49,597 nucleotides of DNA from a virus, in the IMG/VR virus record IMGVR_UViG_3300030380_001972, positions 4,178 to 53,774 of that record, one strand, 5' to 3'. Shown here one piece after another: positions 3,911-32,748 of the stretch. Under the pieces are notes generated by a model that made no database searches, had not been told where the DNA came from, and saw nothing but the letters and a program-made list of their open reading frames with translations. The position numbers were made by a program, and so were the translations under genes. The stretch's first letter is position 1; the number at the start of each line of letters is the position of its first letter.

Positions 3911-6241
3911 ATGACTCTTGATCCTTCGACCTTGACACCTGCGGCTGTAAAGTCGCGGATGTTACAAGACCAAAGCGCACCACAAATGTCGTTTCCGCAA
4001 GCGACACAACCAACTATGAGTATGCCGCGAATTGATGCAGTTAATCAAAAATCTTTGATTCCTGGTTCTGAATTAGATACTAATTCATCTGATGATGCAT
4101 TTGCTCAACAAATTGGTGTAGATATTTTTGGCTCTACTTTAGAAAATACTTCTCCTGAAGCTATTGCATCTATGGCTACAGATAACGCTGATGATGTCGA
4201 CGACTCTGTAAAAAATATATATTCTGGTCAAACTGACTTTGCTCAAATACTTGGTGCGCTTACGTCTATGGGTTTACAAGAAACAGCTACAGAAAAGCTG
4301 TTAAAAGAAGTAAGCGATGAAAAGGCCACACCTGAAGAAGCTCGTAAAAAAGTTAATGAGTTTTTTAAAATAGATACAGATAAAGAAACACCAATGTGGG
4401 CAGACGTAGCTTTATCTGTTGGTTTAAGTTTACTTCGTGGAGAAGGTGGTAAAGGTGAGTTTTTATCTGACATTGGCGTTGCAGGTGAACGAGGATTAAA
4501 AGTAGCACGAACTCGGCGTAAAGAGAAAAAAGCCGAAGACCTTATGTTAGATAAGTTGGCTTTTGGTGTTTTTAGAGAAGACGAAAAATCTCGTAAAACA
4601 CTTATATCACAACTTACTAAACAACTTGGCGAAGAAAGAAAAGAAAGTAAAACATACGCTCTAAATCTTGCTAAGTTTTTTCAAAAGAACGAAGAAATAA
4701 ATGAAACACAAGCAAAAAATAGAGCAGGTGCTATTACAAATACATTAAATACTTTTTCAACAGACTTAAAAGCAAAAGCTCTACCTATTATTGCTAAAAG
4801 TCCCGATGCGTTTAAAGGTGTACCAACTGACGAAATACCGTCCGTAATCTACGGTTTGTTAAAAAACGGTGGTCTAAATTTAGATGAAATTTCAGATTCT
4901 AAAAATATCGTAGAGTCAAATTTTATGATTACAGATGCAGATACTTATACTCGTTTTCAAACAGCGTTTCCAAGTTCGTTCCCAGAACCGTTTCAAGAAG
5001 GTAAAGAATATCGAGTACAAGGGTTTAGTGATAAGTCACGTGGTAAATCTCAGATGCCTATGACTTCTGTACTTTCAGTGGAAAAATCTTTAGGTGGTCA
5101 AGATGAATTATCTCGTTTGATTACTACAAGAAACGATTTAAATGCAGCATTAATTGCTTCTCCTGAGGATGAAAATATTAAACAACAACTTACAGAAGTA
5201 AACGGTCGTATTGATATTTTGTCAACACGTAAATCACCAATGAGTTATATCTTCGTAGATGGTAAAATGGTTGCGGCTGGGGAAGGCGCGGCTGGTGCGT
5301 ATGCGCAAGCTGAAGCTATATCAAAAGGAACAGAACTATCTAAACAAGGTAATTCACTTGCAGCGGCTTATGGTCTAGGTGATAATATCCTTCGTTCTTT
5401 GGCTTCGACTCCTTCACCTGCTGATTCAGTTGGTGTTGTAGCAAACTTCGGTAAATTTATTGGGGGTGGACGTGGTCAGATAGACGCTGTAATTAACACT
5501 TTCGGTAATAACGCTTCAGATAATCAAGCTAATTATTTAAACGGCACTATTACTTCGAGTATGCAAAACAGCAGTCAACGAGTTGGTAATACAACCGTTG
5601 GTAGTGTGTTTAAAAGACTTGAAGCAATTACTCAAGGTAATACTGAAATTAAATCACAACTTATGAGTTTTGCCTATGCGTTAGCAGGTAGTCGTGAAAC
5701 AGGTAAGTTGACAGATAAAGACGTTGCAGCAGCACTTGTTACTTTTGGTGGTGGCGATATTGCTGACGGTAAATGGTTTGCTAATCCAAACGTGCTTGTA
5801 ACAGGTATTAATCAAGCTCTTGATACAGCAACAAACGCATTTGCTGTAAAATACGACAGTGCACATAACACACCTGATAATATTAAATATTTGCGAGATG
5901 TTGAAGGGCTATCTGAAACGGAAATCGCACGAAGAACTAAATTTAATTTACCTGATTTTATTAAAAAGAACGAAGGTATTCGTGAAGGACTTGGGGATCG
6001 AGTAAGTATTGTAAACGGTAGAGTACAGTTCCAAGGTCTTGATAAATACCGTGGCGATGGGGCTGGAAATGTAGATCCTGGTTCAAGTCGATTTACTCAG
6101 CAACAAATTACCGATTTTAATACTATAGATCGTTTGTATGAATTATATAAAGACGATACAGACCAACTAACTAAACTTATTCAAAGATTCGACGCTGAAA
6201 CACTAGAAGCATATAGACGGTTTAAAAAAGGTGATAAATAA
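3911..6241 (+). CDS. Large presumed internal/ejection protein (776 aa)
   Basis: A 776-aa, mostly soluble, helical and charged protein. The N-terminal 40 residues are Met/Gln/Pro-rich. Residues about 140-310 are strongly Lys/Glu-rich with coiled-coil-like stretches; a small hydrophobic patch lies near 165-178. No protease, lysozyme or nuclease motif was recognised. Its size and place next to the 982-aa protein resemble the paired large internal core proteins of T7-like phages (gp15 and gp16), though sequence similarity to them cannot be claimed. The stop overlaps the next start (TAATG), so the two are probably made in fixed ratio. Confidence 0.8.
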   Translation: MTLDPSTLTPAAVKSRMLQDQSAPQMSFPQATQPTMSMPRIDAVNQKSLIPGSELDTNSSDDAFAQQIGVDIFGSTLENTSPEAIASMATDNADDVDDSVKNIYSGQTDFAQILGALTSMGLQETATEKLLKEVSDEKATPEEARKKVNEFFKIDTDKETPMWADVALSVGLSLLRGEGGKGEFLSDIGVAGERGLKVARTRRKEKKAEDLMLDKLAFGVFREDEKSRKTLISQLTKQLGEERKESKTYALNLAKFFQKNEEINETQAKNRAGAITNTLNTFSTDLKAKALPIIAKSPDAFKGVPTDEIPSVIYGLLKNGGLNLDEISDSKNIVESNFMITDADTYTRFQTAFPSSFPEPFQEGKEYRVQGFSDKSRGKSQMPMTSVLSVEKSLGGQDELSRLITTRNDLNAALIASPEDENIKQQLTEVNGRIDILSTRKSPMSYIFVDGKMVAAGEGAAGAYAQAEAISKGTELSKQGNSLAAAYGLGDNILRSLASTPSPADSVGVVANFGKFIGGGRGQIDAVINTFGNNASDNQANYLNGTITSSMQNSSQRVGNTTVGSVFKRLEAITQGNTEIKSQLMSFAYALAGSRETGKLTDKDVAAALVTFGGGDIADGKWFANPNVLVTGINQALDTATNAFAVKYDSAHNTPDNIKYLRDVEGLSETEIARRTKFNLPDFIKKNEGIREGLGDRVSIVNGRVQFQGLDKYRGDGAGNVDPGSSRFTQQQITDFNTIDRLYELYKDDTDQLTKLIQRFDAETLEAYRRFKKGDK

Positions 6242-12928: not shown

Positions 12929-12958
12929 AATATAGTATATAACTATAGTAAAGCTCAA
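12929..12958 (-). promoter_or_regulatory. Promoter of the minus-strand helicase/regulator operon
   Basis: Read on the minus strand: TTGAGC (12958-12953), 18 bp, TATATT (12934-12929). The spacer contains TTTACTATAGTTA, an imperfect palindrome shared with the operator-like palindrome at 32328. The geometry (TTG, 18 bp, TATA-type -10) is the same as in the plus-strand early promoters. Confidence 0.6.
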
Positions 12959-18536: not shown

Positions 18537-18572
18537 AAGATGTTTAACATAGTAAGACGGATGGAGGGTAAA

Positions 18573-22188: not shown

Positions 22189-24187
22189 TAATATAGTAAG
22201 CTCAACGCAGACAAAAACTGCAAAGAAGCAAGCTATGCCAAAAAATCCTCTTCAACAACCTTTGTTTTCTCCTGATAGTGATTGGACGCCACCAGAAGTG
22301 CTTCCTGATTTAAAGGGAGCTAAAGAAATTTGTATCGACTTAGAAACCTATGACCCCTCTCTAAAAGAGCGTGGTGCTGGTTGGGCAAGAAGCGATGGTC
22401 ATGTTGTAGGTTATGCTGTAGCAACTTCTGATTGGTCTGGCTACTTACCTGTAAAACACGAAGCAGGAGGAAACTTAAATGAAAAACTTGTTAAGAAATG
22501 GTTACAAGATCAAATTAATAATGGTGCGGATATTATTTGCCATAACGCTTCTTACGACATTGGGTGGATGCGCAGGGAAGGTATCGAGTTGCGTGGAAAC
22601 AGACTTATTGACACTATGGTGTCTGCCCCTCTGATAGATGAAAATAGATTTAGTTATGCATTAAACGCTTTAGGTAGGGAATACTTACAAGAAAGAAAAG
22701 ACGAGACGTTACTACGAGATGCCGCTGAAGCATGGAGCGTAGATGCAAAAGGTGGTTTACATCGTCTACCGCCTATGTATGTAGGACCATATGCAGAACA
22801 AGATGCTTTGTTAACTCTAAAGCTGTGGGAGTGGCAAAAGGGCGAGATGACACGGCAGGATTTATGGTCTATCTTCGACCTTGAATCTTCGATTACTCCT
22901 TTACTTATAGAGATGCGGTGGAGAGGTGTGCGAGTAGATTTAGATAAAGCAGAAGAATTATCTAAATGGTTTCGTGCAAGAGAGGAAGCCGCCCTTCATC
23001 AAATAAAGAAACTTTGTGGGCGCAATGTAGAAGTTTGGGCAAACAAATCTATTCAACAAGCGTTTGATTCACTCAACTTAACTTATCCTAAAACAGCACT
23101 TGATGCACCATCGTTTCAACAGTCTTGGCTTGAAAACCATGAACACGATATGCCTAAGCTGATTGTAGAAGCTCGAAAGATGAATAAAGCAAGGACTACA
23201 TTTATTGATGGAATGATTATGTCTAACCAAGTCGATGGGCGTATCCACGCAGAGCTTCACCCCCTTCGCTCAGACGACGGAGGAACGGTGACTGGACGGT
23301 TTAGCTACTCTAACCCTAACTTGCAACAAGTTCCCGCCAGAGACCCTGAGATCGGCACGAAAATACGTTCTCTATTTATACCTGAGGAAGGTTGCCAGTG
23401 GGGGGCGTTTGACTATTCGCAACAAGAGCCACGGATCGTTGTTCATTATTCTGATATGATGGGGCTTCCTGGAGCGAGCGATGCCGTAAAAGCATTCCAA
23501 GAAGAAGATGCAGACTTCCATCAAATCGTAGCTGATATGGCGGGGATACCGCGCAAGCAAGCTAAGAACATCAACCTTGGTTTATTTTATTCGATGGGCG
23601 TAACTAAACTATCAGAAAGCCTTGGACTAACCCTTGACGAAGGTAAAGAGCTGTTTAGTCAATATCATGCGCGAGTACCGTTTGTAAAACAACTTTCTGA
23701 GAGGGCAGTACAGAGGGCTTCAAAACAAGGAAGTATTCGTACGCTTCTAGGGCGACGGTGTCGGTTCGATAAATGGGAACCAGCACAGTTTGGTACACGT
23801 AAAATCATGGATCATAAAACAGCGTATGCAGAACACGGTAACGCAATCAAAAGAGCATTCACCCATAAAGCAATGAATAGACTCATTCAGGGAAGCGCGG
23901 CTGATATGACAAAAAAAGCTATGAAGATGTTGTACGATGAAGGTATCGTTCCGCATATTCAAGTACACGATGAATTAGATTTTTCTATCGAATCAGAAGA
24001 GCAAATCATTAAGATAAAAGAAATTATGGAACAGTGCGTAGAGTTGTCTGTTCCTATTAAAGTAGACGTTGACTTAGGACCAAACTGGGGAGACGCTAAA
24101 GAAATAGAAAAGGTAATTAGCCATGCAGAAAGCACAAGGGGATGGACAAGAGGACAAGAGGCAGACTACGCAGTGCAAAAAGTGTAA
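22181..24187 (+). CDS. polA: Family A DNA polymerase with 3'-5' exonuclease
   Basis: 668 aa from a GTG at 22181 preceded by AGGGG; an upstream ATG (22151) lacks a binding site and lies deeper in the previous gene. Exonuclease motifs: DLE (Asp53, Glu55), HNASYD and YAEQD. Polymerase motif A is DYSQQEPR (Asp411), motif B RKQAKNINLGLFY (458-470), motif C VHDE (Asp597). The residue equivalent to E. coli Phe762 is Leu466. A 5' nuclease domain is absent, as in most phage enzymes. It is the replicative polymerase, served by the primase, helicase and SSB-like proteins upstream. Confidence 0.97.
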   Translation: MTNNIVSSTQTKTAKKQAMPKNPLQQPLFSPDSDWTPPEVLPDLKGAKEICIDLETYDPSLKERGAGWARSDGHVVGYAVATSDWSGYLPVKHEAGGNLNEKLVKKWLQDQINNGADIICHNASYDIGWMRREGIELRGNRLIDTMVSAPLIDENRFSYALNALGREYLQERKDETLLRDAAEAWSVDAKGGLHRLPPMYVGPYAEQDALLTLKLWEWQKGEMTRQDLWSIFDLESSITPLLIEMRWRGVRVDLDKAEELSKWFRAREEAALHQIKKLCGRNVEVWANKSIQQAFDSLNLTYPKTALDAPSFQQSWLENHEHDMPKLIVEARKMNKARTTFIDGMIMSNQVDGRIHAELHPLRSDDGGTVTGRFSYSNPNLQQVPARDPEIGTKIRSLFIPEEGCQWGAFDYSQQEPRIVVHYSDMMGLPGASDAVKAFQEEDADFHQIVADMAGIPRKQAKNINLGLFYSMGVTKLSESLGLTLDEGKELFSQYHARVPFVKQLSERAVQRASKQGSIRTLLGRRCRFDKWEPAQFGTRKIMDHKTAYAEHGNAIKRAFTHKAMNRLIQGSAADMTKKAMKMLYDEGIVPHIQVHDELDFSIESEEQIIKIKEIMEQCVELSVPIKVDVDLGPNWGDAKEIEKVISHAESTRGWTRGQEADYAVQKV

Positions 24188-24476
24188 GACAAGTGTTGAT
24201 ACAACTTATGTAGTAGATAGCCGCACATATAAAGGCACAGTCAGACGTCGCAGAAAATGTAGAATATGTGATACGAAAGTTTATACAGAAGAAAAAATTG
24301 TAGCTGTCGGCAAGACTCCATGGTCTGTAAAAAGCAGACGAAAAATTGAGAAGGCTTTACCTAAGAAAACAAGAAAAAGAATCTTAAAACCCCATATCAA
24401 AGAAACTGTTAAAGAGCCTGATTTTGATACTATGACAGACGAACAGCTTGAAGCTTGGATATTTAACCAAGAGTAG
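24123..24476 (+). CDS. NrdR-type zinc-ribbon protein
   Basis: 117 aa, overlapping the polymerase gene by 65 bases in another frame. Two CxxC knuckles (Cys18/21 and Cys46/49) flank VVDSRTYKGTVRRRRKC, which closely follows the DNA-binding zinc ribbon of the ribonucleotide reductase repressor NrdR (VxDSR...RRRxC..C). The ATP-cone that NrdR carries after the ribbon is missing; instead there is a Lys/Arg-rich helix and an acidic tail. It may bind NrdR boxes of the host or a phage site. Function inferred from the ribbon only. Confidence 0.75.
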   Translation: MQKAQGDGQEDKRQTTQCKKCKTSVDTTYVVDSRTYKGTVRRRRKCRICDTKVYTEEKIVAVGKTPWSVKSRRKIEKALPKKTRKRILKPHIKETVKEPDFDTMTDEQLEAWIFNQE

Positions 24477-24486
24477 TTTCAGGTTT

Positions 24487-24521
24487 TTGCGGTTTATTGA
24501 TTACGTTTTGCTACCTATAAT
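24487..24521 (+). promoter_or_regulatory. Early promoter-like element G
   Basis: TTGCGG (24487-24492), 18 bp, CTACCT (24511-24516) and then TATAAT (24516-24521). It shares spacing with the other early elements. It precedes a block of four small genes starting at 24552. Confidence 0.5.
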
Positions 24522-24551
24522 AAATTATAACTTAAATATTAGGAGCAAGAG

Positions 24552-24767
24552 ATGTCAGACCCAGATATTAAAATGTCGCCAGAGGTCGCTATAACGTTAT
24601 GGCGAGCTTTACGAGACGAGGATAGGTCGGAAGCTGACCTTCTCGCCGCTGTTATTATAGGTAATAAAGTAGAGCCTGTATTTGAGGATCAGGAGGAGAC
24701 TCTCGATTTTTATAAAGAGTACCTTATTACACAAGGGTTTGTAGAAGAAGTATCTAGCACCCATTGA
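24552..24767 (+). CDS. Small acidic protein of unknown function
   Basis: 71 aa behind a TAGGAG site. The protein is acidic and helical (SPEVAITLWRALRDEDRSEA) and has no cysteines or membrane segment. It is the first gene of the early-type block, about 30 bases downstream of a promoter-like element. Not recognised; small acidic early proteins of phages often bind host enzymes, but nothing here proves it. Confidence 0.65.
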   Translation: MSDPDIKMSPEVAITLWRALRDEDRSEADLLAAVIIGNKVEPVFEDQEETLDFYKEYLITQGFVEEVSSTH

Positions 24768-24789
24768 TTTTCGTAGAAAGGAGAAAAAT

Positions 24790-25092
24790 ATGTATGAGTT
24801 AGATTACCGTTTACGTCAGTTCGAGAGCTGTATGCGGCACTATCAAAAGTGTTTAGAGTTCATGCGTGATAATACGAAAAAAGCCCGTGAGCGTCGTGTG
24901 TATCAAAAGCTAACCGACGACCATTATCATTGGTATTTTAATAATAACAGCATCTGGCATGACATGGCTATGGGTTGGTATCGTACTGCACAGTGCCATA
25001 GAGAGGCTGTAGTTTCTATTTGCGAAGATAAAAATTTCGATACTGAAGCGGATAAACATGAAAACAGGTTTAGATATGCCAGATATGCCTGA
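24790..25092 (+). CDS. Helical small protein of unknown function
   Basis: 100 aa, ATG behind GAAAGGAG. Rich in Arg, Tyr, His and Trp with helix-like stretches (LRQFESCMRHYQKCLEFMRD). Four Cys residues are scattered and do not form a zinc knuckle. It overlaps the next gene by 35 bases. Not recognised. Confidence 0.65.
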   Translation: MYELDYRLRQFESCMRHYQKCLEFMRDNTKKARERRVYQKLTDDHYHWYFNNNSIWHDMAMGWYRTAQCHREAVVSICEDKNFDTEADKHENRFRYARYA

Positions 25093-25648
25093 TTACGAAG
25101 ATGACGAGGCGTATGAGTTACGCCTCGCTCGCCGTCAATGGCTTGATCCAGAAAGAAAGGAAGAAATTATGGGTAAACTTAAACAACTGGTCTTTAGTTA
25201 TGACCTTATGGATGCTCAGCAAATATTTGGTGTCATTAATCAATGTAACCTATTAGGATTTGGACACGCAGATTATTCTGATCTCGAAAACTTTTTTGGA
25301 CCTCCACCGATTGGTGAAGACGCTATGTTGCCTGACCCCGTCACAGAATATGACGAAGCTGGTAATAAATGGAACGTTCATCATGTTGACCCTAGCCGTG
25401 CTATGCGGTTTTCTGTTCTTCGTCCTTTTCGGTCATCTAAAGAGCGAGGAGTAGTTAGTTGCGCATGGGGGATGCTTTGGGAAGATAAGCAAGGTATTGT
25501 CATTCATGACTTAAACCCTGCTACAGATCGTTACGAAGATAATAAACATTGGCACATTACTGGTACTCGTGAGGGTTGGTATCGTATTAATCATTGCTTT
25601 TCAGGGGAGATGTGTGTTAGACTAGAGTCAGTGGAAATTCTTGGTTAA
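25058..25648 (+). CDS. Unknown soluble protein of the early block
   Basis: 196 aa if started at ATG 25058; ATG codons at 25076 and 25085 are alternatives and none has a strong binding site. The N-terminus is acidic with repeated Met-Pro-Asp; the rest looks like a mixed alpha/beta domain with a Pro-rich block FFGPPPIGEDAMLPDP near residue 80. No recognisable motif. A good intrinsic terminator follows the gene, so the block 24552-25648 is probably one transcript. Confidence 0.7.
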   Translation: MKTGLDMPDMPDYEDDEAYELRLARRQWLDPERKEEIMGKLKQLVFSYDLMDAQQIFGVINQCNLLGFGHADYSDLENFFGPPPIGEDAMLPDPVTEYDEAGNKWNVHHVDPSRAMRFSVLRPFRSSKERGVVSCAWGMLWEDKQGIVIHDLNPATDRYEDNKHWHITGTREGWYRINHCFSGEMCVRLESVEILG

Positions 25649-25671
25649 TTTTCATTTTTTCTCCCCAAACT

Positions 25672-25699
25672 AAAGGCGGCTCAATGAGTCGCCTTTTTT
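25672..25699 (+). terminator. Intrinsic terminator
   Basis: AAAGGCGGCTC (25672-25682), loop AAT, GAGTCGCCTTT (25686-25696), then a T run to 25699. The 11-bp stem has one G-T pair. It closes the small-gene operon starting at 24552 and precedes the next promoter-like element by about 30 bases. Confidence 0.85.
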
Positions 25700-25731
25700 C
25701 GTTTTAGACAGACATCATAAGTTTCATAATT

Positions 25732-25771
25732 TTGAGGTTATATTCTTTACTATTGTATACTATACTATAAT
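25732..25771 (+). promoter_or_regulatory. Early promoter-like element A
   Basis: TTGAGG (25732-25737), 18 bp, TATACT (25756-25761), with the -10 hexamer repeated at 25761-25766 and as TATAAT at 25766-25771. The spacer contains TTTACTAT. It lies directly upstream of the regulator-like gene at 25824. Confidence 0.7.
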
Positions 25772-25823
25772 AAGTAAAGTAATGTGGTCGCATTACTCCT
25801 TCACGTCATTCATGGAGACATAT

Positions 25824-26384
25824 ATGACAAATATAGAAAGCCATAAATCTGTAGCCGTTGAGCTACCTACTTATCGTGTTTTGAAAAAAGTAGCTGAAGC
25901 AGAGTTTCGTACTCCGTCTAAGCAGATTGCTTTTCTTCTTAATCGTGATTACCCTGAGTTATCTGCCGACATACATAACGGTTACGACTCTATGGACGAA
26001 GAAGACACCATAATTCGTACTAACTTAGGTAACGTTGTTGCTTTTGCACCCGAGGCGTGTGAGACACACCGCACTCAGTTTCGTACTTGGCAAGTCTTAG
26101 TGTGCTTGTATAAAAACCGTAGTATTGGTCCTTTATCCACGCCTCAGATCTCTAGCGCGATAAATTACACAAACCGTGGTGGTCTTGCGTCTTCTCTTAA
26201 TGCTCCTCGTAATTATGGTCTTATTGCTTCTCGTCCTATCCAGATAGGTGGCCGTGAACACGAGTGGTTGCTTACAGAGTTTGGTATGTTTGTTGCTAAA
26301 GATTTAGACGAGCGCATTCCTATTCGATTGACCCAAACTGTACTTAGTCAGTACGAGCGTCGATTTTTAGATCAAGTATCATGA
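25824..26384 (+). CDS. Possible transcription regulator: N-terminal ribbon-helix-helix-like, C-terminal winged-helix-like
   Basis: 186 aa from the ATG at 25824 that follows ATGGAG; an ATG at 25782 lies at the expected transcription start and is less likely. Residues about 6-38 (KSVAVELPTYRVLKKVAEAE) look like a ribbon-helix-helix, and residues 85-170 like a winged helix (STPQISSAINYTNRGGLASS then a basic hairpin and LLTEFGMFVAK). The predicted DNA-binding nature is inference from pattern. It has its own promoter-like element and heads an operon with the next three genes through ATGA overlaps. Confidence 0.65.
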   Translation: MTNIESHKSVAVELPTYRVLKKVAEAEFRTPSKQIAFLLNRDYPELSADIHNGYDSMDEEDTIIRTNLGNVVAFAPEACETHRTQFRTWQVLVCLYKNRSIGPLSTPQISSAINYTNRGGLASSLNAPRNYGLIASRPIQIGGREHEWLLTEFGMFVAKDLDERIPIRLTQTVLSQYERRFLDQVS

Positions 26385-26626
26385 AAAAGCCAGACCGTAG
26401 GCATGGTTCGCCATATGATCGCGGCAGTGCCGACCGTTATTACGGTCGGCCAGCTAACCCTCATTTTTATGCTGGTGATACTTACTCGACTGATAAATTC
26501 GATAAGCACAGTATGTCGGACGAAGAGATCGCTGAGTATTATAGGGGCTATGAAGAAGAGGAAGACCGTAAGGATTGGGGCAATAATGAAGTCGACCCAG
26601 AACCAATTAATTGGAGTATAATATGA
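26381..26626 (+). CDS. Small charged protein, Arg/Tyr-rich N-terminus and acidic C-terminus
   Basis: 81 aa, ATG overlapping the previous stop (ATGA). The N-terminal RRHGSPYDRGSADRYYGRP and the acidic MSDEEIAEYYRGYEEEEDRK form a pattern I know from small conserved phage and bacterial proteins of unknown function. No membrane segment. Probably translated together with its neighbours. Confidence 0.7.
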   Translation: MKKPDRRHGSPYDRGSADRYYGRPANPHFYAGDTYSTDKFDKHSMSDEEIAEYYRGYEEEEDRKDWGNNEVDPEPINWSII

Positions 26627-26841
26627 GTACGTTTCCAGCTGATCTAGCCGAAGCCGTTCATTCTATGACATATGAGGAGATTGATAGTTTTGTTACAGAA
26701 ATGTTTAAACGTAGTGATCTTCTTCCTTATATCTTTAGTAAAGCGATTTATTGTAACCTCAAGAAAAGAGAGGCCATTGAAAATGGAGTGTTGTATATGT
26801 CACCGTCAGATCGAGCCGCAAATCCATCCTTCGACGGGTGA
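26623..26841 (+). CDS. Small unknown helical protein
   Basis: 72 aa, starting at the ATG overlapping the previous TGA (ATGA) and preceded by GGAG. Acidic helical N-terminus (LAEAVHSMTYEEIDSFVTEM), no cysteine pattern, no signal. It overlaps the start of the zinc-binding protein at 26783 by 59 bases. Not recognised. Confidence 0.6.
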   Translation: MSTFPADLAEAVHSMTYEEIDSFVTEMFKRSDLLPYIFSKAIYCNLKKREAIENGVLYMSPSDRAANPSFDG

Positions 26842-27067
26842 GGCTTATTGGACAAAAGGCCATAATGCACTACCTGTAAAAGATGGTAGATGTTGTGATG
26901 GTTGTAATCAGTTTGTCGTATTTCCTGCTCGATTAAAACACTTTGAGTTCTTTATTAATGGGTGGACTAACGATGACGACTTTCATACCATCAAAAAAGA
27001 GTTTATAAATAAACTAACTGATCGGAGGAAAGATAATGAGAAATCACCTAATCCGTCTTCACATTGA
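26783..27067 (+). CDS. Small Cys-rich zinc-binding protein
   Basis: 94 aa from the ATG at 26783; the in-frame upstream extension is hydrophobic noise overlapping the previous gene. Cysteines form MECCICHRQI (CxxC) and GRCCDGCNQF (CCxxC) knuckles around the conserved HNALPVKDGRCC. This compact zinc ribbon is common in marine phage genomes, function unknown to me. The C-terminal half is a charged helix. Confidence 0.75.
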   Translation: MECCICHRQIEPQIHPSTGEAYWTKGHNALPVKDGRCCDGCNQFVVFPARLKHFEFFINGWTNDDDFHTIKKEFINKLTDRRKDNEKSPNPSSH

Positions 27068-27233
27068 TAGTATCTCTCCACGTCCTAGACGTATCAAACT
27101 ATCGACAGCTTTTGGTTTGATATTACTTGGTTTTATTCTTACGTTGATAGGTTTGTTTATCTATTCTAATTTCTTTTGGAACCAAGAAATCGAAACCCAC
27201 GCACGGTTTATTCCCGTCAGTATTTTGGTATAG
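27036..27233 (+). CDS. Small single-TM membrane protein
   Basis: 65 aa behind a perfect GGAGG site. A basic N-terminus (RPRRIKLS) precedes one long hydrophobic helix at about residues 24-46 (FGLILLGFILTLIGLFIYSN). Positive-inside topology suggests cytoplasmic N-terminus. It overlaps the previous gene by 32 bases, and its last codons overlap the next promoter-like element. Function unknown. Confidence 0.65.
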   Translation: MRNHLIRLHIDSISPRPRRIKLSTAFGLILLGFILTLIGLFIYSNFFWNQEIETHARFIPVSILV

Positions 27234-27259
27234 TATTCATCTTTATTGTTTACTATAAT
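27225..27259 (+). promoter_or_regulatory. Early promoter-like element B
   Basis: TTGGTA (27225-27230), 18 bp, TTTACT (27249-27254) and TATAAT (27254-27259). The spacer begins with TAGTATTC, giving an ATAGTA/TACTAT inverted repeat. It is almost a copy of element C 675 bases downstream. An AGAAAGGA leader site follows before the next gene. Confidence 0.7.
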
Positions 27260-27298
27260 AATAAAGTAAGAAATATATTTGCACAGAAAGGACAGCAA

Positions 27299-27583
27299 AT
27301 GAGGTATTCAGCACAAATTTATATGCGTGGTAAACACGGTCAATGGTTGACCCCTATCTATCCTCGCATCAGTGATATTGGACGATACTTACGTCGTGCT
27401 TTCGATCGTAAGTTGTTTGAACACCATGACGAGTCTGAAATAAGAGAGATTGTTGTTATAAAAGCACGTCGAGGCAAGAGGCCTATTATTCATGGCTATT
27501 ACGACTTCCGTGGCGATCGTTTAATCTTGGATCGTTCAAAGCCAGCACATCTTAATAATCTTATTTATGGGTTGGAGGGTTAG
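27299..27583 (+). CDS. Small basic protein of unknown function
   Basis: 94 aa from the ATG at 27299, chosen because AGAAAGGA precedes it at about ten bases and the promoter ends just upstream. Arg/Tyr-rich with several beta-like stretches (EIREIVVIKARRGKRPIIHG). High basic charge suggests nucleic-acid contact, not proven. Not recognised. Confidence 0.65.
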   Translation: MRYSAQIYMRGKHGQWLTPIYPRISDIGRYLRRAFDRKLFEHHDESEIREIVVIKARRGKRPIIHGYYDFRGDRLILDRSKPAHLNNLIYGLEG

Positions 27584-27868
27584 ATGTTAGCAGTATATGC
27601 TTTTCGTGACGACACAGGTGAGATTAGTCATGTACAGTTCATGGGAACTGTTTACGAGCTAGGTGACGAAGTAGCCACTACAACGTCAGTCATGAATTAT
27701 ATTAAACAACTTGATCATGATGAAAAATGGCCAGAGAGCTGTTATGCTTTTATCATTAATCTTCGTACTTTAGAAGTTATGTTATTAGACCATGATGAAG
27801 AAATTATCGGCAGTGGTTGTAGTCTTACTGAAACGATCGAAGCGGCTATTCAATCTTTTTATGTTTAG
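27584..27868 (+). CDS. Small acidic protein of unknown function
   Basis: 94 aa starting immediately after the previous stop, behind GGAGGG. Acidic and mixed alpha/beta in appearance, with no Cys pattern or membrane helix. Co-transcribed with the basic protein upstream, so the two may form a complex of opposite charge; that is speculation. Confidence 0.65.
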   Translation: MLAVYAFRDDTGEISHVQFMGTVYELGDEVATTTSVMNYIKQLDHDEKWPESCYAFIINLRTLEVMLLDHDEEIIGSGCSLTETIEAAIQSFYV

Positions 27869-27877
27869 GAGATATAA

Positions 27878-27955
27878 ATGGAGATACCGCCTCAGTATTT
27901 TGTTATAGTAATCATTTATATTGTTTACTATACTAATAAAGTAAGAAGTAAATAG
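27878..27955 (+). CDS. Possible 25-aa membrane mini-protein overlapping a promoter
   Basis: ATG at 27878 follows AGGAG at a good distance. The peptide begins MEIPPQYFVIVIIYIVYY and would be one short transmembrane helix with a basic tail. The frame runs through promoter-like element C, so the hydrophobic residues may simply reflect the AT-rich promoter sequence. The same amino-acid pattern (QYF.IV..IVYY.NKVR) appears in frame at copy B. Confidence 0.35.
   Translation: MEIPPQYFVIVIIYIVYYTNKVRSK
27900..27934 (+). promoter_or_regulatory. Early promoter-like element C
   Basis: TTGTTA (27900-27905), 18 bp, TTTACT (27924-27929) and TATACT (27929-27934). ATAGTAA and TTACTAT form an inverted repeat within the spacer and -10. 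It precedes the DUF932 gene and its AAAAGGAG ribosome binding site. Confidence 0.7.
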
Positions 27956-27983
27956 TTGTCATTACTTAGAAAAGGAGAAAGAC

Positions 27984-28991
27984 ATGGCACATAATATTGA
28001 AACTATGGCTTGGGCTGGCGATGTTCCGTGGCACGGTTTAGGTGTCGAGGTTCAAGATAATTTGACACCTGTTGAGATGATGCAAGCCGCATCACTCGAC
28101 TGGACAGTTTCTAAGCGTCCTGCTTACACGCTCACCGAGGCCGAGTGGCATGAGGGTGTCGCCGTAATGAACGTCGACGGTCATCATTTCCTCACTCGAG
28201 ATAGCGATAACCTTATTTTGTCACATTGCGGTGACGATTACGTCCCTATCCAAAACGAGCAGATCTTCGACTTCTTTAAGAAGTTTACTGAGGCTGGCCA
28301 CATGAAGATGGAGACAGCTGGATCGCTTCGTAACGGCTCAGAGATTTGGGGCTTGGCTAAGATATCGTCAGACTTCAAACTTGCAGGTGGTGACGAGGTC
28401 AAAGGTTATTTGCTTATTAATCAGCCACATGTTGCAGGTAAGGCTATGGTCATAAAGTTCACGCCTATCAGGGTCGTGTGTAATAATACTCTAACCATGG
28501 CTCTTGCCGATGGCGGTGCAGCGTTCCGTATGCCTCATATCCGTGAGTTCGATATGGACGTTCGTCGTGCGGCAGAGGAGGCATTGGGTCTGTCCGAGGT
28601 TCGTCGTAAGGAGTTCCAAGAGCAAGCCGAGTTCCTTTCATCAAAGCAGTTCTCTGGCGAGACCGTTATGAATTATATCGCCGAGTTGTACCAGCCCCAG
28701 CTTCTAATTGATAAAGCAAAGGCTTCAGGTGATGAAGACTTCGTCCTTCAGGAAAAGTTCTCTCGTACCGCTGAGATGGTTATGGGTGCGGTCGACCTTT
28801 CTCCAGGAGCGACACTCAAGTCAGCTAAAGGTACTTGGTGGGGTGCGCTTAATGGTGTGACCTTTGTAGAAGACCACCAACGTCGTGGCGCGGCTGAGGG
28901 TAATGCCCTTCATAGCGCATGGTTCGGTGCTGGGGCTAACCGTAAAGCCAAGGCTCTTTCAAAAGCTATTGAGTATGCCGAGGCCGCATAA
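27984..28991 (+). CDS. DUF932 / phage-plasmid-like protein
   Basis: 335 aa. The N-terminus MAHNIETMAWAGDVPWHGLG and the later QIFDFFKKFTEAG, FTPIRVVCNNTLTMAL and the C-terminal GNALHSAWFGAGANRKAKAL are hallmarks of the DUF932 (TIGR03299) family carried by many phages and plasmids. It is a soluble protein; its biochemical role is unknown, though it is often expressed early and abundantly. The gene uses more C- and G-ending codons than most neighbours. It is expressed from element C and followed by a strong hairpin. Confidence 0.92.
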   Translation: MAHNIETMAWAGDVPWHGLGVEVQDNLTPVEMMQAASLDWTVSKRPAYTLTEAEWHEGVAVMNVDGHHFLTRDSDNLILSHCGDDYVPIQNEQIFDFFKKFTEAGHMKMETAGSLRNGSEIWGLAKISSDFKLAGGDEVKGYLLINQPHVAGKAMVIKFTPIRVVCNNTLTMALADGGAAFRMPHIREFDMDVRRAAEEALGLSEVRRKEFQEQAEFLSSKQFSGETVMNYIAELYQPQLLIDKAKASGDEDFVLQEKFSRTAEMVMGAVDLSPGATLKSAKGTWWGALNGVTFVEDHQRRGAAEGNALHSAWFGAGANRKAKALSKAIEYAEAA

Positions 28992-29035
28992 CAGTTGATG
29001 CTGAGTAACATCTAAAACTACTCTCCTTTCTGCTT

Positions 29036-29068
29036 CAGCCCCCTGATGATCCAACCGTCAGGGGGCTG
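29036..29068. terminator. Strong GC-rich hairpin after DUF932
   Basis: CAGCCCCCTGA (29036-29046) pairs perfectly with TCAGGGGGCTG (29058-29068) around an 11-base loop. There is no T tract on either side, so it may act as an RNA stability element or a factor-dependent terminator rather than a standard intrinsic one. Confidence 0.6.
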
Positions 29069-29114
29069 TTGCCGAATAGTTCCCCTGTTAGACTGATTCG
29101 TACGATACAGTATT

Positions 29115-29154
29115 TTGAGATAGTATTCTCTTACGTTGTATACTATATTATAAT
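29115..29154 (+). promoter_or_regulatory. Early promoter-like element D
   Basis: TTGAGA (29115-29120), 18 bp, TATACT (29139-29144), TATATT (29144-29149) and TATAAT (29149-29154). ATAGTAT and ATACTAT form an inverted repeat with a 13-base gap. It precedes the two paralogous small genes at 29204 and 29491. Confidence 0.75.
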
Positions 29155-29203
29155 GGTAGGCGCGTAGCGTCTCGTCACCGACCAGCAAAGAAAGGATTAG
29201 GTC

Positions 29204-29491
29204 ATGTTTTTATTTTACACACAGTCTTCACAGGATGATTATTCTCAGTTTATTCTTCAAGGTGGTATGTACCTTTGTAGAGAGTCTATCGTTCCTTCTA
29301 TCACCAGCCACCAAGAGTTTTGCGATGGCGAAGTTGATTATAATTATTATGCCCTTGATGCTCAGAAGTTTGAGCTGTGGCGTTTTTCTGACAATGAAGT
29401 TTCTGTAACTAACGATGACGTTTATGTAACTGACGGTGAGTGGGTAAAGGTTGGACTTCCTTACTCCATGCAGATTAAAGAGGTGGCATAA
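29204..29491 (+). CDS. Small early protein, paralogue of its downstream neighbour
   Basis: 95 aa behind AGAAAGGA. It shares with the next gene the layout FYTQ....Y...L..IVP.I...C...V..AL and a C-terminal DGEW motif, so the pair likely arose by tandem duplication. It is acidic, with no membrane helix and no recognised domain. The stop overlaps the next start (TAATG). Confidence 0.7.
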   Translation: MFLFYTQSSQDDYSQFILQGGMYLCRESIVPSITSHQEFCDGEVDYNYYALDAQKFELWRFSDNEVSVTNDDVYVTDGEWVKVGLPYSMQIKEVA

Positions 29492-29709
29492 TGTGGGCTT
29501 ATTATACTGAAACAAATCAGATTCGCACATATCAAAGCGGTGTCTTCAAGAGCCTTGAGGACATCGTTCCACAGATCAAGTTGATTACAGTCTTGTGTGA
29601 AAACCTACTAGATGTTCACCTCGCTCTTAACTTGACGACTATGTCTTGGTATCACTACGACGATGGCGAGTGGTCGTGGATTGGTGACTCTGTATTTCAA
29701 CAAAAGTAG
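29491..29709 (+). CDS. Small early protein, paralogue of its upstream neighbour
   Basis: 72 aa, ATG overlapping the previous stop. YYTETNQIRTYQSG, DIVPQI and DDGEWSWIG align with the 95-aa protein just upstream; this copy is shorter by an internal loop. Function unknown. A hairpin (29718-29737) follows. Confidence 0.7.
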   Translation: MWAYYTETNQIRTYQSGVFKSLEDIVPQIKLITVLCENLLDVHLALNLTTMSWYHYDDGEWSWIGDSVFQQK

Positions 29710-29717
29710 TTGACGTG

Positions 29718-29737
29718 TTGGGGGCTTTTGCCCCCAA
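29718..29737. terminator. Hairpin after the paralogous pair
   Basis: TTGGGGGC (29718-29725), loop TTTT, GCCCCCAA (29730-29737). The stem is perfect and symmetrical but no long T run follows on the plus strand, so termination would be weak. Confidence 0.6.
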
Positions 29738-29750
29738 TGCTATTCCTACA

Positions 29751-29777
29751 GGTTTGAGTGACTCGTTCACGTAAACC
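29751..29777. repeat. Small inverted repeat
   Basis: GGTTT (29751-29755) and AAACC (29773-29777) enclose GTGA/TCAC around CTCGT. It lies in the 286-base gene-free stretch 29710-29995, which otherwise contains only AT-rich sequence, the 29718 hairpin and the inverted repeat at 29968. No gene is visible in that stretch. Confidence 0.35.
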
Positions 29778-29967
29778 TCCATCATAATCTCATAATGTCA
29801 TAATATCTTTGTAAGTGGTTCTTTAACCTTGGTTTGTTGGTATGACATCGTGTTTGCAGGTTATGATAACAAGAGAACGATAAGCCGTCGTGAGTCACTT
29901 TTGCTTCAGTAAATACTTTACTCACTGTAAATATACATTGTTGCGGTGGGTAAGATTTGCTGGTATG

Positions 29968-29985
29968 TTTACTTTGTTAAGTAAA
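29968..29985. promoter_or_regulatory. Inverted repeat upstream of the small terminase gene
   Basis: TTTACTT (29968-29974), TGTT, AAGTAAA (29979-29985). It is a relative of the TTTACTATAGTAAA palindrome and ends about ten bases before the TTG start, so it could be an operator or block ribosome access to the GGAG site. Confidence 0.4.
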
Positions 29986-29995
29986 TGGAGACAGC

Positions 29996-30628
29996 TTGTT
30001 GGCTACTGAAGTAACTACATTGGAATCCCTTGAGTATACGCCCGTCGCACCATCAGAGTGTGGAAATTATTGGGTAACTCCCGATGGTAAGAAACATCGT
30101 CCTCTTTCGCCACGCCATAAAAAGTTCTGTTCGTTGTATGTACAGGGTATGTCTGGTGCTGAAGCGGCTCGCAAATCTGGTTTCACAAAACATAAGTTTG
30201 GCGCGAAAGCTCAAGGCTCTGCTCTACTTCGCAGAAACCCTCTCATCTCTAATCATATCATCGACTTGTTGAAAAAAGAGATCGAGCGACAGAATGTTTC
30301 TATGGAGTCGCATCTTACTGAACTTTCCCGTCTGCGTGATGAAGCCGTTGATTCAGGGCAAATATCCTCGGCTATCAGTGCGGAGATCTCGAGAGGTAAA
30401 GCGGCAGGACTGTATATTGAGAAGAAGGAAGTGACCGTCAACAAAGTCGAAACGATGTCCGATGAAGAACTAAGATCAAAGTTACAGGATTTGTTGGACG
30501 GTGGCAATATGAAAGTGGTGAACCATGTATCAGACAGAGAAGAAACTCTACCAAGCATTGAAGACCAACTTGACCAAGGTTCATTGGCAGAGGATCGAGA
30601 CGGGAGCGTTACAGCAGGGAGTTCCTGA
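29996..30628 (+). CDS. terS: Terminase small subunit (Terminase_2 type)
   Basis: 210 aa. The order LSPRHKKFCSLYVQGMSGAEAARKSGF (residues 37-63), the GSALLRRNPLI block, the coiled-coil LKKEIERQ and the AEISRGKAAGLYIEKKEV segment are those of small terminase subunits with an N-terminal helix-turn-helix. It recognises phage DNA and loads the large subunit. Start is one of two tandem TTG codons, both behind GGAG; no ATG fits. It is 5.5 kb upstream of the large subunit, separated by early-type genes. The 3' end overlaps the nuclease gene by 104 bases. Confidence 0.8.
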   Translation: MLATEVTTLESLEYTPVAPSECGNYWVTPDGKKHRPLSPRHKKFCSLYVQGMSGAEAARKSGFTKHKFGAKAQGSALLRRNPLISNHIIDLLKKEIERQNVSMESHLTELSRLRDEAVDSGQISSAISAEISRGKAAGLYIEKKEVTVNKVETMSDEELRSKLQDLLDGGNMKVVNHVSDREETLPSIEDQLDQGSLAEDRDGSVTAGSS

Positions 30629-30941
30629 TGTCAATGCCTGTTATCATGGTACAGAGTTTTGGCTTGAACTTAAATGTACATCTACTGATACTGTTTCACT
30701 GACTCCGTTTCAATGTTCATGGCACATGCGCCGCGCATCAGTTGGAGGTAGGTCATGGATACTGGTCGCCCATTCAAAACATAATGTTTTGACACTACAT
30801 CGCGGAAGTGATGCTCTGAGGATACTAGACCATGGGGTTTCATCATCTACTGCATTCTCGTACCATGCGCCGATTGATTGGCCTCAGTTTTTGCACGATG
30901 TTTGTTTGACTGACTCACTGCAATTAAAAGCTCTTGGTTGA
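30525..30941 (+). CDS. VRR-NUC / PD-(D/E)XK nuclease
   Basis: 138 aa. Catalytic pattern: an early Glu (Glu25 in IETGALQQGVPD), Asp35, Glu48-x-Lys50 (WLELK) and Gln63 in the following helix, which is the VRR-NUC layout. Enzymes of this family are structure-specific or Holliday-junction endonucleases. Beside the small terminase it may resolve branched DNA before packaging. It overlaps terS by 104 bases in another frame, so translation is probably coupled. Confidence 0.85.
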   Translation: MYQTEKKLYQALKTNLTKVHWQRIETGALQQGVPDVNACYHGTEFWLELKCTSTDTVSLTPFQCSWHMRRASVGGRSWILVAHSKHNVLTLHRGSDALRILDHGVSSSTAFSYHAPIDWPQFLHDVCLTDSLQLKALG

Positions 30942-30964
30942 CTGACCGACTGACTGATTGACTG
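30938..30964. repeat. TGAC/TGAT tetranucleotide repeat cluster
   Basis: A run of TTGACTGACCGACTGACT-type units that starts at the very end of the nuclease gene. Related runs occur at 31505, 31597 and 32255. The units contain stop codons in several frames. Confidence 0.6.
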
Positions 30965-30994
30965 TAGTTCTAGTTATTCATAATTTTGTTTATT

Positions 30995-31034
30995 TTGTAC
31001 TTTACTTCTTCCTCTTACTATACTATATTATAAT
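30995..31034 (+). promoter_or_regulatory. Early promoter-like element E
   Basis: TTGTAC (30995-31000), 18 bp, TATACT (31019-31024), TATATT (31024-31029), TATAAT (31029-31034). The spacer contains TTTACTTC. It drives the small protein at 31089, whose leader carries AGAAAGGA. Confidence 0.7.
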
Positions 31035-31088
31035 CATGGTTAAGGCGGTCGCCTAGCCAGCTGCTCACAGTCAAGAAAGGACATTGTT

Positions 31089-31451
31089 ATGACTGCAGTT
31101 TCTAAGAAGAAGGCTACTTCAACAAAAGCCACTGTTAAGACAGCTTCTGCTACTTTGAAGGTTGTTGATCCCGCTGGTAACTCTGGCATCCCTGCTCCAG
31201 CTCCCAAGGGCTTTGACGGTCGTAAGATCAAGCTTGTTGCTTTGTCTAAGGAAAATCGCCGTTTGCCTAATCAGGCGGTTGTTGTCTTGGATACGCTCAA
31301 GGCTCTCGGTGCTGACAAAAAGCCCGTTACTCAGGCTGAGCTGATTGCGGCCATGCTAGAGAACGGTCTCAAGACTGTTCAGACACCAAAGCGCATTTAT
31401 ACATTCTACCGCAAAGATTTGTTGGAAGAAGGTTACATCGCATACGCATAA
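31089..31451 (+). CDS. Small protein with winged-helix-like C-terminus (paralogue 1)
   Basis: 120 aa. A Lys/Thr/Ala-rich flexible N-terminus (to about 35) leads to SGIPAPAPKGFDGRKIKL and then a compact helical domain resembling a winged helix, ending TFYRKDLLEEGYIAYA. The protein at 32398 has the same layout (CGIPAPSANGRGNLKM ... TFYRKKLIAANLIKVG), and the C-terminus of the 18573 protein is similar. It is likely a small, basic, abundant DNA-binding protein. It has its own promoter and intrinsic-like hairpin. Confidence 0.75.
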   Translation: MTAVSKKKATSTKATVKTASATLKVVDPAGNSGIPAPAPKGFDGRKIKLVALSKENRRLPNQAVVVLDTLKALGADKKPVTQAELIAAMLENGLKTVQTPKRIYTFYRKDLLEEGYIAYA

Positions 31452-31458
31452 GTCAGCG

Positions 31459-31487
31459 AGGGCGGTCATCATTTGACCGCCCTTTCA
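31459..31487 (+). terminator. Hairpin terminator
   Basis: AGGGCGGTCA (31459-31468), loop TCATT, TGACCGCCCT (31474-31483), then TT and a TCATCATC stretch. The stem is a perfect 10 bp; the T run is short. Confidence 0.75.
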
Positions 31488-31504
31488 TCATCCCCATGGT
31501 TTGC

Positions 31505-31516
31505 TTGACTGACTGA
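31505..31516. repeat. TTGACTGACTGA repeat
   Basis: A short copy of the tetranucleotide repeat also seen at 30938, 31597 and 32255. It lies between a terminator and the next promoter-like element. Confidence 0.5.
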
Positions 31517-31564
31517 TGGCACACTACCCTTCATCATCATCTGAAAACCAACAAAGGCCGCGCA

Positions 31565-31587
31565 GTCAAAAATCAATGATTTTTGAC
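31565..31587. repeat. 23-bp perfect palindrome
   Basis: GTCAAAAATCA (31565-31575), a central A, TGATTTTTGAC (31577-31587). It lies in the intergenic region before promoter-like element F and next to TTGATTGA repeats. It could be a binding site for a dimeric protein or part of an origin; its arms could also form a hairpin in RNA. Confidence 0.7.
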
Positions 31588-31596
31588 CAAGGTCTT

Positions 31597-31632
31597 TTGA
31601 TTGATTGACTCACTCATTGTTTGATTGACTCG
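31597..31632. repeat. TTGATTGA/TTGACT repeat cluster
   Basis: Two runs of TTGATTGATTGACT-like units directly follow the 23-bp palindrome and precede promoter-like element F. Confidence 0.55.
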
Positions 31633-31645
31633 GAGCTTGACTATT

Positions 31646-31685
31646 TTGCGATAGCTTTCTTGAGCGGTGTATACTATACTATAAT
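31646..31685 (+). promoter_or_regulatory. Early promoter-like element F
   Basis: TTGCGA (31646-31651), 18 bp, TATACT (31670-31675), TATACT (31675-31680), TATAAT (31680-31685). It drives the gene at 31715, which has AGAAAGGA in its leader. Confidence 0.75.
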
Positions 31686-31714
31686 AGTAGCTAATTATAG
31701 AAAGGAACAAAGCT

Positions 31715-32029
31715 ATGAACGATGTCAAACTAATGAGAGAAGTTTTCGCAGAGGCTGGCATGGCCCTAAAGAACTTACGCGAAGAGTGTCAAGACTTGGG
31801 CGAAATCGTCGAAGGTCACTACTCGGTCGTATGGCGTGGCTTCTATGGCTGTAGTTATTATCGTGCTAATTATGAAGAAGGTATCACACCTTGTGTAATT
31901 CTTGAGACCTATTGGGACAGTTCTGAAGAAGGCTCTACGAGAGGGTTTCAGAGCCTTGGCGAAGCTAAAGAGTATATAGAGTCTGAGGCAGCTTGGCTCT
32001 TTGAAAACGTCTTCGCTGAGAGGGCTTGA
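31715..32029 (+). CDS. Small acidic unknown protein
   Basis: 104 aa behind AGAAAGGA. Acidic, aromatic-rich (YYRANYEEGITPCVILETYW), ending in an acidic helix (LGEAKEYIESEAAWLFENVF). No domain recognised. A 34-aa membrane mini-protein starts two bases after its stop. Confidence 0.65.
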   Translation: MNDVKLMREVFAEAGMALKNLREECQDLGEIVEGHYSVVWRGFYGCSYYRANYEEGITPCVILETYWDSSEEGSTRGFQSLGEAKEYIESEAAWLFENVFAERA

Positions 32030-32030
32030 C

Positions 32031-32135
32031 ATGCTTGACCAGTTTCTAAGTGCATTGAAAGTTATCGCCCTTGGCAGTATTGCAGTTTACTGTCTAATTG
32101 GCTTCGCGCTTGTGTTATTTTATCAAGCTGTTTAA
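32031..32135 (+). CDS. 34-aa single-TM mini-protein
   Basis: ATG at 32031 follows GAGAGGG and starts directly after the preceding gene. The sequence is one long hydrophobic helix (VIALGSIAVYCLIGFALVLF) with a short polar N-terminus, ending at TAA 32133-32135. Small phage membrane peptides of this kind often interfere with host envelope functions; here the role is unknown. Confidence 0.55.
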   Translation: MLDQFLSALKVIALGSIAVYCLIGFALVLFYQAV

Positions 32136-32144
32136 CTAATTTTT

Positions 32145-32166
32145 GGGGGCGGCTTCGGTCGCCCTC
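32145..32166 (+). terminator. UUCG-capped hairpin
   Basis: GGGGGCGGC (32145-32153), tetraloop TTCG, GTCGCCCTC (32158-32166). The C(UUCG)G cap makes the RNA hairpin very stable. A weak T run follows, so it serves as a terminator or RNA end protector. Confidence 0.7.
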
Positions 32167-32254
32167 TATCATCATCACTCCCCTCTTCATCATCATATGT
32201 TTGCCGTGCGCATGCGTCAATATGCGCTCGATTGATATTGACTGTCTTCGCTCT

Positions 32255-32270
32255 TTGATTGACTGACTCG
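32255..32270. repeat. TTGATTGACTGACTCG repeat
   Basis: Fourth cluster of the TGAC/TGAT repeats, upstream of the palindrome at 32328 and the promoter-like element for the 32398 gene. Confidence 0.5.
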
Positions 32271-32327: not shown

Positions 32328-32356
32328 TTTACTATAGTAAAAAAGTGGTATATACT
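32328..32356 (+). promoter_or_regulatory. Palindromic operator and promoter I
   Basis: TTTACTATAGTAAA (32328-32341) is a perfect 14-bp palindrome. It is followed by a TATACT -10-like hexamer at 32351-32356, 17 bp downstream of a TTTACT hexamer that is half of the palindrome. A repressor sitting here would cover the -35. Confidence 0.6.
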
Positions 32357-32397: not shown

Positions 32398-32748
32398 ATG
32401 ACTAAAATTTCTAAACCTACTACTAACGCTACTGTAACCCCTACCGTTAATAAAGCGTCTGTCGCGCGGTGCGGTATCCCTGCCCCTAGTGCTAACGGTC
32501 GCGGTAATTTAAAAATGTCTTTAACTAAGGACGTAAAAGCTAATTTAGAGGCGTTAGAAAAGCCGCTACCTGCGCAGGCGCAGGCTATACTATACGTTTT
32601 AGACCAGCTCGGCGGTACGGCTACGCAGGCGGATTTAATTAAAGAGTTAGATACGGGCGAGGTGTTAGCTACCGTGCAGGGTGCTACGCGTATCGTTACT
32701 TTTTACCGTAAAAAACTTATAGCGGCTAATTTAATAAAAGTAGGCTAA
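32398..32748 (+). CDS. Small winged-helix-like protein (paralogue 2) with unusual base use
   Basis: 116 aa. It shares with the 31089 protein the basic flexible N-terminus, the GIPAP motif (CGIPAPSANGRGNLKM) and the C-terminal TFYRKKL block. Base use is strikingly different: no NCA codons, no TTG or CTG leucine codons, no GGA, and abundant CG-containing codons (GCG, ACG, CGT). It ends with two nested hairpins built of the same CTAACG words. AGAAAGGA precedes the start. Confidence 0.75.
   Translation: MTKISKPTTNATVTPTVNKASVARCGIPAPSANGRGNLKMSLTKDVKANLEALEKPLPAQAQAILYVLDQLGGTATQADLIKELDTGEVLATVQGATRIVTFYRKKLIAANLIKVG

Follow-up and report, generated by a model that had tools for sequence, protein, structure and literature searches.

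Repeated elements ahead of small genes in an uncultured marine phage clade resemble promoters with a conserved upstream box

A short element that recurs through a 53.8-kb contig of an uncultured virus is, as judged from its sequence, almost certainly a promoter and neither a chance recurrence nor a small coding gene, because its copies far exceed those in shuffled DNA, recur in ~ 45 related viral loci and precede ~ 20 non-homologous families of small genes. We consider it probable (roughly 0.75) that these are promoters for a host-type polymerase in which the second of up to three reiterated hexamers is the −10, the −35 is poor, and a conserved box, CAKTATTTTGT, compensates for it.

The window, that is, the whole stretch of DNA analysed (49,597 nucleotides), covers positions 4178–53774 and so nearly the whole contig. 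It encodes a helicase, a family A DNA polymerase, a thymidylate synthase, a terminase small subunit and a DUF932 protein. The closest family A DNA polymerases were those of phage 023Pt_psg01 and Pelagibacter phage HTVC023P (51–54% identity), and megablast of the 24–34 kb region against cultured phages gave no DNA-level match. The phage clade is marine and uncultured. Relatives were gathered via DUF932, which yielded 80 viral loci: groups A, B and C (L006–L050, at least 68% identity) and a more distant outgroup (L051–L085). A DUF932 search of bacterial genomes returned one contig, from a Nitrospiraceae MAG at 49% identity, and therefore gave no clue to the host.

The original prediction had described one layout at seven sites, with TTGNNN followed after 18 bp by TATACT or TTTACT and then by further hexamers at 5-bp steps. 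The pattern TTGN3-18-TWTACTATA matched exactly at six of them (25732, 27225, 27900, 29115, 30995 and 31646) and nowhere else on either strand, compared with 0.005 matches expected from 200 dinucleotide shuffles of the window and zero in shuffles of the region only. Leave-one-out PWM scans, each covering 99,096 positions, placed all six within the top 7, right behind the training copies. The layout did not extend to the seventh site, 24487, which has CTACCT at 18 bp and its sole good hexamer, TATAAT, at 23 bp, and which ranked 14th in the leave-one-out scan. The first hexamer is thus missing from 24487, and a full third hexamer is missing from the 27225 and 27900 copies. All six exact copies do precede genes with AGAAAGGA/GGAG-type leaders (at 27900, AAAAGGAGAAAG), as had been stated for most copies. 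One further diverged member, P18507, falls outside the range originally given, 24487–31685 (Table 1).

Table 1. Promoters with the upstream box, second-class promoters and associated candidate regulators in the window. Functional assignments are predictions.
Feature	Coordinates	Strand	Details
Box promoter P25732	25725..25773	+	Box 25725–25735; weak −35 TTATAT 25738–25743; −10 TATACT 25761–25766; −10 originally placed at 25756
Box promoter P27225	27218..27266	+	−10 TATAAT 27254–27259; ortholog L014 5536
Box promoter P27900, before DUF932 gene	27893..27941	+	−10 TATACT 27929–27934; kept before DUF932 in groups A, B and C
Box promoter P29115	29108..29156	+	−10 TATATT 29144–29149; TATACT and TATAAT on either side in 5-bp steps
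Box promoter P30995, before winged-helix-like gene	30988..31036	+	−35 TTTACT 31001–31006; spacer 17; −10 TATATT 31024–31029
Box promoter P31646	31639..31687	+	−10 TATACT 31675–31680
Diverged member P24487	24480..24528	+	TATAAT 24516–24521 only, no hexamer at 18 bp; orthologs L014 2877 and L012 2263 with TATAAT at same offset
Diverged extra member P18507	18500..18548	+	TATTTTGTACTTG..., −10 TAAGAT; before gene starting at ~ 18573; orthologs G008:7776 and G001:34767
Second-class promoter	32328..32356	+	Palindrome TTTACTATAGTAAA overlapping −35 TTTACT; spacer 17; −10 TATACT 32351–32356; no upstream box
Helicase promoter region, second class	12929..12958	−	TTGAGC-18-TATATT, or TTTACT-17-TATATA with CTTTACTATAGTT; no upstream box
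Small protein, predicted C-terminal winged-helix-like domain, candidate regulator	31089..31451	+	Driven by P30995
Paralogue of 31089 protein, candidate repressor or activator	32398..32748	+	Behind palindrome promoter

Groups A, B and C carry the element repeatedly, each time ahead of a gene that has a ribosome-binding site; it is absent from L051–L085 and from the 26.9 kb of HTVC023P that we read. An exact pattern scan of viral contigs returned 25 stretches; those on clade contigs were real elements, and several of the others were chance-like. The element has a fixed spacing, recurs, stands ahead of genes and is restricted to the clade. This motif search found it enriched before genes in related phages, an outcome that favours promoters, and its conservation among relatives lends good support to the proposal that the elements drive small genes. 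We found no description of this promoter in the open-access literature.

Alignment of the non-redundant copies revealed two conserved blocks, CAKTATTTTGT..T....TTC and, 15 bp past its end, TATAnT. Scanning the clade with the upstream block only (at least 14 bits) gave 52 non-redundant plus-strand and 4 minus-strand matches, counts that do not represent independent events, as many of the loci are mutually related fragments. Among the 52, TAnAnT was present at offset 29 (23 bp after TTGNNN) in 43, at offset 24, where the −10 had been placed originally, in 13, and at offset 34 in 20. Since this block model had been trained partly on sites carrying the −10, we repeated the test with a block built from the six window copies only and applied it to the divergent groups B and C. 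The hexamer was at offset 29 in 10 and at offset 24 in one of just 19 plus-strand matches; at offset 29 it was found in 0/18 minus-strand matches and in 0/23 plus-strand outgroup matches. It is thus the second hexamer that stays constant. The DUF932 promoters of L009, L020, L021 and L050 have kept it and lost the first, and the orthologs of 24487 (L014 2877 and L012 2263) have the second only. The conservation pattern shows the core boxes of the original prediction to be, in all likelihood, ~ 5 bases off, with the upstream TTG belonging to an additional conserved box; the assignment of TTG as the −35 and the first TWTACT as the −10 was not supported.

It seems quite unlikely that the original register is nevertheless correct, with TTGNNN as the −35, the hexamer 18 bp on as the −10 and the 5-bp reiterated boxes setting start-site choice. 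An 18-bp spacer is permitted and is matched exactly by six window copies, TTGAGA-18-TATACT at 29115 scores 10/12, and T[AT]TACT, the first hexamer, is enriched, occurring in 23 of 43 promoters. However, this hexamer is missing from about half of the sites, among them 24487 and its orthologs, whereas the second is nearly invariant; no ACA-like bases follow the TTG, and conservation runs upstream to CAKTA, unlike in a −35. The third hexamer, TAnAnT, is found in 17/43 promoters and, like the first, is above chance and dispensable. The 5-bp reiteration of the −10 is thus frequent, as had been noted, but not universal, and because roughly half of the sites lack it we regard it as secondary as a functional signal. 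It would arise because TWTAC is in phase with TATAnT and the melting region is A/T-rich. A different proposal, that the elements are small genes whose frame QYFVIVII..VYYTN specifies a one-helix membrane peptide, is extremely improbable. An ORF at 27878–27955 with a good SD (AGGAGATATAAATG; AGGAG) does encode MEIPPQYFVIVIIYIVYYTNKVRSK and overlaps P27900, an SD and ATG are also present in L038 (MGQYFVIVIIVFALYT), and the frame has few stops within the core. Yet this low stop rate lies chiefly within the motif itself, the ORF is not kept as a gene in most relatives, many sites have stops just upstream or inside (L009, L016 and others; in L016 an in-frame TAG), and P25732 comes after a terminator and lacks a start. 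An SD and start accompany only 2/43 sites, which contradicts a membrane-peptide gene family in general. We also considered CtrA sites (TTAA-N7-TTAA; PMC9437464) and rejected them, as the conservation profile of the conserved block contains no such dyad.

On our preferred reading, with the second hexamer as the −10, a host-type (σ70-like) RNA polymerase would read promoters that are reused ahead of small accessory genes, each transcribed independently. The −10, TATAnT, would lie at −12 to −7, 23 bp after TTGNNN, with transcription starting ~ 7 nt after it, and the poor −35 would correspond to offsets 6–11, 17 bp upstream of this hexamer. CAKTATTTTGT, at −48 to −38, would compensate for the poor −35 either as a proximal UP-type site for α-CTD or as an activator site. 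The first "repeat", TWTAC at −17 to −13, would take the extended −10 position and the third hexamer would cover the melting/discriminator region. In σ70 promoters, the proximal UP element is at −45 to −37, a weak trTGn element is at −17 to −13, and a 17-bp spacer is preferred (PMC2613000). The TATAAT-like hexamer at a fixed position in both the clade scan (43/52) and the held-out test (10/19) agrees with a σ70-type −10. Likewise, TATTTTG at −45 to −39, with 83–100% conservation per position, is an A/T-rich tract in the proximal UP interval; TTTTG, originally read as the −35, sits at −43 to −39 inside the box. The hexamers 17 bp upstream of the −10 are degenerate with an invariant first T (TTTTAT, TAGTAA, TAGTAT and others), and three sites have TTTACT; that of P30995, with its 17-bp spacer, was found independently by a consensus scan. 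A generic σ70 consensus scan of the region found no excess over shuffles (20 found, 20.1 expected), and the promoters are therefore non-canonical. Within the contig itself there was no match to PF00940 (RNA_pol), for which the control genomes gave no match either, or to PF04545 (sigma70 region 4), for which the control matched 14/14, although divergent factors might escape this search.

All 43 box promoters are followed within 60 nt of the −10 by an SD and start codon, compared with 27% of random positions, and the distance from TTG to the start is near-constant, mostly 65–94. Their downstream genes represent ~ 20 families that show no detectable similarity to one another, and an intrinsic-terminator-like hairpin (25672–25696) precedes P25732; both fit separately transcribed accessory genes. 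By eye, the product of the gene behind P25732 (25806–26384) seems to have an N-terminal ribbon-helix-helix and a second HTH-like part, with no Pfam match. The protein encoded at 24123–24476 has an NrdR-like zinc ribbon N-terminus, just under the Pfam cut-off, and is a possible further regulator. In several copies the promoter is followed directly by short inverted repeats within the 5′ leader (29157–29200 and 31037–31070), as is also seen before DUF932 in L017 (CCGATAACGGTATCGG) and L051–L085; these are possible mRNA-stabilising hairpins.

The minus-strand helicase promoter at 12929, originally counted with the family, does not fit it: TTGAGC-18-TATATT is present, but TWTACT and the conserved upstream box are both lacking. 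The site instead looks like the promoter at 32328 (CTTTACTATAGT) and, by its sequence, is a member of a second class with the operator-like palindrome TTTACTATAGTAAA. Ahead of the 32398 family, and also of some 31089 relatives, this palindrome overlaps a TTTACT −35. The proteins at 31089 and 32398 are paralogous to each other and, more distantly, to that at 18540, whose gene starts at about 18573. The C-terminal half of the family is predicted to form a small domain composed of helices and a strand (pLDDT ~ 90); for the 31089 protein, Foldseek returned nothing significant and a VIA fold search gave Z values of at most 6.9, with many winged-helix rows, none significant. With tblastn, neither protein had a match in cultured phages. 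In the same part of the window, between terS and the structural genes, TGA[CT]TGA[CT] tetranucleotide repeats cluster at 30907–32263 (30907, 30939–30962, 31506–31517, 31598–31629 and 32256–32267). Groups A, B and C have such repeats at the corresponding location, and outgroup loci have almost none; possible roles are those of an iteron, a packaging site or an origin. Further downstream is an Rfam Mu-gpT-DE RNA (RF03012; 43395–43447, plus strand, 61.6 bits), upstream of gene 43445.

We infer that a member of the 31089/32398 family may regulate the promoter set. As a tentative and rather unlikely addition, compatible with the host-polymerase reading, TTTACTATA half-sites over the −10, often with TATAGTAAA or TAAAGTAA downstream, would bind a putative phage winged-helix repressor, and overlapping half-sites would yield the 5-bp reiteration. 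Such a layer is suggested by the palindrome, which with at most one mismatch precedes winged-helix-like genes in each of the groups A, B and C but is found in none of the outgroup loci, and by inverted TACTATA/TATAGTA pairs (9 in the window vs 0.2 expected; 85 in the clade vs 7 in the outgroup). On the other hand, much of this count is accounted for by the −10 sequence itself, the arms abut in the palindrome but are 4–5 bp apart in the promoters, and the right arm is present on only 8/43 box promoters. It is also conceivable, but unlikely, that CAKTATTTTGT is bound by a phage activator specific to the clade, perhaps a winged-helix-like paralogue (18573, 31089 or 32398), that would switch on the accessory set, with TTTACTATA half-sites at the −10 letting the same family shut it off.

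The promoters recall several known systems in layout. T4 early promoters have the arrangement UP/−35/TGn/−10 and, as predicted for those described here, use the host polymerase; like them, they conserve sequence beyond the −35 and −10, are A/T-rich upstream of the −35 and occur in many copies per phage (PMC2988021). They match the −35 well; the promoters here have a poor one and an upstream box of greater sequence specificity (C −48, G −39), and we claim no sequence relation. T4 middle promoters likewise combine a good −10 with a phage-specific box that replaces the consensus −35, but the MotA box is centred on −30, 12 ± 1 bp from the −10 (PMC2988021), compared with −48 to −38 for the strongest box of the promoters here. 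Instead of a MotA TGCTT at that distance, we found TTC at −30 to −28 and then a weakly conserved spacer down to −13, and in the genes that we scanned we identified no homologue of MotA or AsiA. The T-tract box at −45 to −38, in 17-bp-spacer numbering, resembles a proximal UP element; the latter needs only an A/T tract, and the conserved C −48, A −47 and G −39 go beyond this (PMC2613000). The SAS/ESAS of cluster K mycobacteriophages are likewise short and asymmetric, repeat mostly in a single orientation, lie shortly before many small genes that are unrelated to one another and are conserved among related phages, but SAS is GGGATAGGAGCCC immediately before the start codon (PMC3203893), whereas the element here is promoter-like and spans −48 to −2.

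The box, its spacing and the −10 provide a sequence rule for locating transcription units in an uncultured marine phage clade whose small genes are otherwise unannotated. If the activator reading were true, the set would form a compact phage regulon that differs from both the MotA and the Mu systems. One promoter cassette ahead of ~ 20 unrelated families is a plausible route by which phages may acquire and express accessory genes.
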